NCBI RefSeq assembly: GCF_000327505.1
Contig: NC_019942.1
Location: 1,240,001 to 1,304,000 of the forward strand
Length of the DNA stretch: 64,000 nt
Source of the DNA: Aciduliprofundum sp. MAR08-339
GTDB lineage: Archaea > Thermoplasmatota > Thermoplasmata > Thermoplasmatales > Aciduliprofundaceae
Direction: 5' to 3'
This document shows positions 6,309-44,130 of this stretch, one piece after another (positions within the stretch are counted from its first letter, which is position 1; the number at the start of each line of letters is the position of its first letter). The notes beneath the pieces were generated by a model. That model was not told the origin of the DNA, searched no databases, and saw only the letters and a program-made list of their open reading frames with translations. Made by a program: the position numbers and the translations under genes.

Positions 6309-7788
<1,480 letters not shown>

Positions 7789-7792
7789 AGTT

Positions 7793-24581: not shown

Positions 24582-24697
24582 TCCATACCTTTTTACCCAG
24601 TTGAGAAAAATTAAAGGAAGAAGGTCCGAAGGAGAGCATTCTCAGGGTAAAAGAACCAACACATGGCATTTATGGGGGATTTTGAAAGACATCCCTC

Positions 24698-24730
24698 TTT
24701 GGGGGTAAAGCACCTTTTCCAAAGGGGCTT
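24698..24730 (-). repeat. tRNA-intron-like element in the tRNA-Glu 3' flank
   Basis: On the minus strand this 33-nt segment starts AAGCCCCTTTGGAAAAGG and ends GCTTTACCCCCAAA. It matches 44047-44076, inside the tRNA-Thr intron, with no substitutions and only three single-base insertions (a C, a T and a C). It begins two bases after the discriminator base of tRNA-Glu, so it would be in that tRNA's 3' trailer. Both copies form a hairpin around the loop TTGGA. Confidence 0.7.
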
Positions 24731-24732
24731 AG

Positions 24733-24807
24733 TGCTCCGGCCGGGATTTGAACCCGGGTCGAGGGGTTGAGAGCCCCTAATGCTTGGCCGGGCTACACCA
24801 CCGGAGC
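24733..24807 (-). tRNA. tRNA-Glu (anticodon CTC)
   Basis: 75-nt cloverleaf on the minus strand: acceptor GCTCCGG/CCGGAGC with discriminator A, D arm around AGCCCGGCCAAGC, anticodon stem AGGGG/CCCCT with loop CTCTCAA (anticodon CTC) and T arm with loop TTCAAAT. CCA is not encoded. A minus-strand TATA (AATTTTATATGC, complement of 24842-24853) lies about 40 bp upstream, divergent from the HAD gene. No intron. Confidence 0.95.
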
Positions 24808-44007: not shown

Positions 44008-44130
44008 GCCACCGTAGCTTAGCCCGGCAGAGCGGCTGATTCGTATAAGCCCTTTGGAAAAGGGCTTTACCCCAAACCGTATGGGCTTCGAAATATCAGC
44101 AGGTCGGGGGTTCGAATCCCCCCGGTGGCT
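44008..44130 (+). tRNA. tRNA-Thr (anticodon CGT) with intron
   Basis: Exons 44008-44045 and 44095-44130. Acceptor GCCACCG/CGGTGGC with discriminator T; anticodon stem GCTGA/TCAGC; spliced loop TTCGTAA gives anticodon CGT; T arm GGGGG/CCCCC-type with loop TTCGAAT. The intron is inserted after position 37, the canonical site. A BRE-like CGAAAAGG plus TATA GATTTATAAGC (43977-43987) lies about 25 bp upstream. CCA is not encoded. Confidence 0.95.
44046..44094 (+). other. Intron of tRNA-Thr (bulge-helix-bulge)
   Basis: 49-nt archaeal intron. The splicing motif is exact: anticodon stem GCTGA/TCAGC, 3-nt bulge ATA (44093-44095), 4-bp helix TTCG (44040-44043)/CGAA (44089-44092), 3-nt bulge TAT (44044-44046), then helix AAGCCC (44047-44052)/GGGCTT (44083-44088). 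Cutting after the second base of each bulge gives the exons listed. Positions 44047-44076 are nearly identical to the 3' flank of tRNA-Glu at 24698-24730. Confidence 0.92.

Follow-up and report, generated by a model that had tools for sequence, protein, structure and literature searches.

Why should one and the same short sequence stand behind tRNA-Glu(CTC) and also inside the intron of tRNA-Thr(CGT)? In the window, by which we mean the whole 64-kb stretch of DNA that was analysed, the minus strand at 24698-24730 (read from 24730 to 24698, AAGCCCCTTTGGAAAAGGTGCTTTACCCCCAAA) and the plus strand at 44047-44076 (AAGCCCTTTGGAAAAGGGCTTTACCCCAAA) are separated by three 1-nt indels (C, T and C) and no substitutions, which bears out the identity reported in the first-pass annotation. 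Infernal places the end of tRNA-Glu at 24733, in agreement with an element that had been said to start two bases further on, and also recovers the intron-bearing tRNA-Thr at 44008-44130, which ARAGORN missed. In the MFE fold of the Thr anticodon arm together with its intron, AAGCCC pairs with GGGCTT and TTCG with CGAA to give a bulge-helix-bulge (BHB), so that the first six bases of the Thr copy are indeed one side of the splicing helix; the position after nucleotide 37 and the 3-nt bulges around a 4-bp helix, seen in this fold and the exon alignment, fit an archaeal BHB tRNA intron. The hairpin around TTGGA, also claimed earlier, appears in the MFE fold of the element as CCTTT-GGA-AAAGG. We rejected a chance match: genome-wide searches found copies elsewhere with E-values down to 1e-10, and clustering downstream of tRNAs in a related genome has a chance probability of about 1e-29. 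A covariance model of the family, whose training set took in both window copies, scores them at 53.8 and 32.6 bits, and a search with it returned no further significant copy in the 64-kb window. The Glu trailer and the Thr intron are probably alike because the same element entered both (Table 1).

Table 1. Positions of the element (M1) and of the two tRNA genes that carry it in the window
Feature	Position	Strand	Basis
M1 in tRNA-Glu(CTC) 3' trailer, 2 nt past the tRNA end	24697..24730	-	sequence, fold, covariance model
tRNA-Glu(CTC), without intron	24733..24807	-	Infernal
tRNA-Thr(CGT) exon 1, last position 37	44008..44045	+	Infernal, exon alignment
tRNA-Thr(CGT) intron, 49 nt	44046..44094	+	exon alignment, MFE fold
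M1 as 5' part of the tRNA-Thr(CGT) intron	44047..44077	+	sequence, covariance model
GGGCTT, BHB 3' arm pairing with AAGCCC (44047-44052); outside the dispersed element	44083..44088	+	MFE fold
CGAA, pairing with exon TTCG (44040-44043); central 4-bp BHB helix	44089..44092	+	MFE fold
tRNA-Thr(CGT) exon 2	44095..44130	+	Infernal, exon alignment

The first-pass annotation had proposed searching the complete genome and its relatives, and doing so uncovered a multi-copy family, M1, plus two sibling hairpin families, M2 and M3. The genome that contains the window (G000; a single contig of 1,437,090 bp, from the deep-sea DHVE2/Aciduliprofundum group) holds at least 14 M1 copies, both window copies among them, as counted by sequence searches that may miss diverged copies. 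Ten tRNAs carry M1 as an intron at 37/38 (Thr-CGT, Thr-TGT, Glu-TTC, Ile-GAT, two Met-CAT, Gln-TTG, Asp-GTC, Arg-CCG and Asn-GTT), and four carry it as a trailer (Glu-CTC, Glu-TTC and two tRNA-Ala genes), 2 nt past tRNA or tRNA-like 3' ends. The intron of tRNA-Pro(TGG) is M2 and that of Pro(CGG) is M3, bringing M-type introns to 12 of the 14 detected; only those of Tyr-GTA and one Met-CAT are module-free. Near-identical introns thus occur in different isoacceptors of this one genome, and its RNase P RNA (558249-558625) contains M3-type inserts.

Partial copies of tRNA ends accompany some of these genes. Three tRNA-Ala genes (L027, L031 and L034; 57836, 506055 and 96635) are each followed by two more copies of the tRNA 3' end (CCCGGTCCA), every one of which closes a minihelix-like hairpin; M1 begins 2 nt past the last copy in two of the three and has a decayed form in the third. 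In the same genome, part of the tRNA 5' end (AGCCCCGTGGTGTAG...) is repeated about 55 nt ahead of both tRNA-Gln genes (583690-583735, L012 and L057; and upstream of tRNA-Gln(CTG), L039), and tRNA-Glu(TTC) of G006 has a 5' partial copy resembling it.

The three families share an architecture. M1 runs AAGC, a C/T mismatch, CCTTT, the loop GGA, AAAGG and GCTT and then the tail TACCCCCAAAG, as in the Glu trailer (AAGC.C.CCTTT-GGA-AAAGG.T.GCTT with this same tail); across the family the hairpin keeps its internal mismatch, and the general tail is TTTACCCCCAAAG. A long-stem variant, M1L, has CCTTTCTT-AGA-AAGAAAGG, and another, M1G, has GCGGCTT with the tail TACCCGGAAAG, which implies that foot and tail vary jointly. 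M3 consists of GGGG, a C/T mismatch, ACC-TAC-GGT and CCCC with the tail TCTCTACACCCCTCCC, and M2 of the stem AGGAACC/GGTTCCT, the loop ACCAGCG and the tail TTACCTCCTGCAACC. The stem mismatch is conserved in M1 and M3, and the module tail is unpaired, pyrimidine-rich and UUUACCYCC-like. Stems persist through alternative pairs: M1 also comes in fully paired versions (C-G, A-T or G-C at the mismatch site), the M3 arms GGGG/CCCC, GAGA/TCTC and GGGA/TCCC all retain pairing, and when M3 was checked without filtering, full pairing held for 6 of 7 distinct arm pairs, where shuffling gave 3.7 on average. M1 shows modest covariation. Modules stand singly or as inverted dyads, facing dyads being frequent in RNase P RNA and intergenic DNA. 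Within introns, the MFE folds have the 5' AAGCCC quit its hairpin partner and pair with GGGCTT near the 3' splice site; the dispersed copies are without this intron 3' arm (GGGCTT and the 4 nt that can pair with tRNA positions 32-35). A known RNA family or guide RNA was rejected, as no Rfam covariance model (C/D or H/ACA guides, for example) matched the modules and only tRNA, SSU rRNA and RNase P were found.

The family is narrowly distributed. When 84,980 species genomes were scanned with the M1 pattern, 25 contigs matched, each with a title naming Aciduliprofundum, DHVE2 group, Thermoplasmata or Euryarchaeota archaeon; M1 is present in 14 of 41 related genomes and M2/M3 in 14 of 17 genomes of the family. 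Viral carriers were rejected, since 2.9 million viral contigs held no exact match to the M1, M2 or M3 pattern. In G003 (1,486,778 bp), an A. boonei-like genome that we presume to be the cultivated A. boonei, all 21 matches lie inside tRNA genes as introns or within 261 nt downstream of a tRNA, and it is the 14 of 14 downstream matches that give the chance probability of about 1e-29 quoted above. Its M2 copy is identical to the G000 query at 36 of 36 positions and sits in the same tRNA, Pro-TGG (L215, G003 380193-380313); this tRNA, the likely target of the A. boonei casposon, holds a perfect M2 intron, and a casposase-size Cas1 gene lies about 5 kb downstream of it. Six near-identical M1 copies occur in G013. 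Of the 44 M2/M3 copies in G006, one alone lies in the 300 nt downstream of a tRNA from the incomplete tRNA list, and ordinary intergenic copies are numerous in one genus. Trailer copies begin 2 nt past the tRNA end in G000, G001, G003, G007 and G008. Behind tRNA-Glu(CTC) itself, M1-like copies of differing sequence are found in G001, G003 and G008 and none in G010, and in G003 and G006 the intron of tRNA-Thr(CGT) carries the long-stem form that elsewhere occurs in trailers.

Comparison of orthologous tRNAs revealed filled and empty sites. In G010 (99% complete, 45 tRNAs found), two introns were detected, both non-M: those of Tyr and Met(348903), which this genome keeps. The orthologues of ten tRNAs with M-type introns (Asp, Asn, Ile, two Met, Gln, Pro-TGG, Arg-CCG, Glu-TTC and Thr-TGT) are intron-less there. 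Intron absence is thus 10 of 10 for the M-type versus 0 of 2 for the non-M type (Fisher p = 0.015), in a comparison without Thr-CGT and Pro-CGG, for which no orthologue turned up in the G010 tRNA set. Asn, Thr-TGT and Met(267860) have an M-intron in G000 and are empty in G003, and His is the reverse. The G010 exons of Asp are identical to those of G000, where the intron is a short M1; in G003 it is the M1G form. RNase P RNA has M3-type inserts in 10 of 12 genomes, G004 and G010 being insert-free. Filled and empty sites differ element by element. The outgroup-family genome G025 has its sole detected intron in tRNA-Tyr, which favours gain within the family; a weak tree from 247 nt of RNase P RNA nests G004 and G010 among genomes with inserts, and loss could account for their empty sites. 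On a 4.3-kb contig of G010 (C4, L243), a tRNA-Met trailer and its flank are nearly identical to G003; a second such G010 tRNA is without a trailer of this type, and the contig may be a binning contaminant.

We conclude that the M modules almost certainly make up a dispersed repeat family and that they were very probably once mobile. Their likely identity is that of a non-autonomous, REP/MITE-like family of palindromic repeats lodged in RNA genes, which would have driven the turnover of tRNA introns in the DHVE2/Aciduliprofundum family. Modules would have inserted as DNA wherever an RNA gene tolerates an added hairpin. Where the insertion fell in the anticodon loop after position 37, the element with its arms would be removed as a BHB intron; other insertions would have landed 2 nt past a tRNA 3' end, in either of two RNase P RNA loops and, within one genus, in intergenic DNA. 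We prefer mobility at the DNA level because it best accounts at once for the copies in intergenic DNA, trailers, RNase P RNA and introns. The mover might have been a transposase of the REP/IS200 kind, able to recognise hairpins and no longer present, an attribution we regard as rather doubtful. Against the reading as a whole, no target-site duplication around modules was demonstrated and no mobilising enzyme was found. PF01797 Y1 transposases are absent from G000, G003, G006 and G009 and occur only in G011 and G013, where they adjoin TnpB-like ORFs and the IS ends are unlike the modules; a resident Y1 transposase was rejected as the source on account of its absence from closed genomes and of these differing ends.

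A fuller picture, which we advance tentatively, is that the modules are archaeal tRNA introners: hairpin insertions after position 37 become BHB introns, most introns of the genus are recent and were gained or lost as units, and the same hairpins entered sites 2 nt past tRNA 3' ends and RNase P RNA. That a module's insertion itself creates the intron is a shade less secure than this picture. The first-pass annotation had raised the idea that the element is the source of the intron, and the copies in introns, trailers, RNase P RNA and intergenic DNA, together with the filled and empty sites, lend it support. As the 3' arm is absent from dispersed copies, insertion of the bare element alone would not give a BHB. 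This 3' splicing arm outside the element sequence is one reason to consider that modules entered pre-existing introns, neither creating nor spreading them. Another is G012: its Met and Arg-CCG introns are non-M at sites that hold M1 in G000, so a share of the modules may have gone into older introns or taken their place. As a general account, however, this is unlikely: the ten G010 orthologues are wholly intron-less, Asn, Thr-TGT, Met and His alternate between an M-intron and none in sister species, the outgroup offers only its Tyr intron, and both older introns are module-free.

Movement at the RNA level is a further alternative to DNA-level mobility, in which the splicing endonuclease and RtcB ligase would join excised introns to cut tRNA precursors (after 37 or at the 3' end) and the chimeras would be copied back, trailers being by-products. 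The tRNA copies do lie at or beside tRNA-processing cuts (37/38; N73 plus 2 nt), pairing of the intron 3' arm with tRNA positions 32-35 offers a possible means of target choice, and in Thermoproteales introns are reported to have transposed on a large scale, the mechanism being unknown (Fujishima 2010, as cited in PMC4090602). We nevertheless consider this route improbable, given intergenic and RNase P copies that have no intron 3' arm, G006 M2/M3 copies mostly distant from tRNAs, and the RVT_1 (PF00078) reverse transcriptase, found in 0 of 14 genomes with positive controls, a result on which we also rejected a retroelement identity. The suggestion of a small mobile RNA element is supported in its mobile part, through the multi-copy family with filled and empty sites; its RNA nature stays conjectural. 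A conserved signal for processing, stability or termination, held in trailers and introns by selection and not by mobility, would account for the exact 2-nt distance to the tRNA end in several genomes (including G000, G001, G003 and G008) and for M1 and M3 stems preserved via alternative pairs. It is very improbable, when most tRNAs have no hairpin (in G010, tRNA-Glu and most others), orthologues within the genus differ in its presence, and copies sit within RNase P RNA and intergenic DNA. Nor is the earlier proposal of a binding site for a tRNA-processing factor supported, the hairpin being missing from most tRNAs and present at unrelated loci. We give least credence of all to the idea that a casposon or an integrase inserted at tRNA 3' ends and left the modules as relics. 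The casposase of A. boonei aims at the 3' end of tRNA-Pro and duplicates 14-15 bp of target (PMC6614799), and behind tRNA-Ala genes M1 comes after short repeats of the tRNA-Ala 3' end; yet the casposase cuts inside the tRNA end whereas M1 starts 2 nt past it, introns and RNase P inserts go unexplained, and G000 has only one Cas1 gene against two in G003, one of them casposase-sized. Despite that gene, the 290 nt behind the likely target in G003, tRNA-Pro(TGG), hold 0 M modules and lend a casposon source no support.

The modules resemble, and depart from, several known systems. REP/BIME (REPIN) repeats associated with RAYT/IS200-like Y1 transposases are hairpins of 20-40 nt with mismatches in some families and a conserved unpaired end tag, arranged as singlets, inverted dimers and clusters (PMC3733652; PMC3116915; PMC2817692). 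M modules are likewise short hairpins with a conserved, unpaired tag at one end, found as singlets and inverted dimers, but the reverse-strand tag is GGTAAA (M1, M2) or GTGTAGA (M3) and not GTAG or CGTC, the host is archaeal, G000 and G003 have no resident RAYT, and copies sit in tRNA introns and RNase P RNA. The transposed introns of Thermoproteales are also near-identical in unrelated tRNAs, by an unknown mechanism (PMC4090602), whereas the intron core described here also exists outside tRNA genes, something apparently unreported for them. Spliceosomal introners similarly look like dispersed repeats that bring new introns, but in mRNA, in contrast to BHB tRNA introns cut by a protein endonuclease (PMC9860276). 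In Caldiarchaeum, too, intron gain is tied to a mobile element, although there a 1.9-kb insertion with a recombinase disrupts one tRNA (PMC3293823) and here hairpins of about 35 nt occupy many. Among non-subscription papers, we found none describing these repeats, or archaeal intron cores that also lie outside tRNA genes.

How archaeal tRNA introns arise and move is an open question, and alike introns in different tRNAs were known earlier without a source. In the present case, copies of the intron core turn up outside tRNA genes in three hairpin families, and the module family may be a route by which new tRNA introns arise. Filled and empty orthologous sites between sister species make tRNA intron gain testable, in parallel to eukaryotic introners, and tRNA introns and RNase P RNA are added niches for REP/MITE-like repeats.

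Two smaller observations concern module sequences. Between their usual ends, expanded modules in G009 and G003 (L106, L110-L112, L115 and L122) accommodate a further two hairpins (GAGCAACNNNNGTTGCGAGCAAGCC...GGCG), which gives the impression that hairpins entered module loops. The M3 variant GGGGAACCTGCGG (L089, for example) matches 13 nt of 16S helix 45 (window 7700-7790) exactly, and the M2/M3 tails (ACCTCC) are similar to the anti-Shine-Dalgarno end; both likenesses are possibly coincidental.
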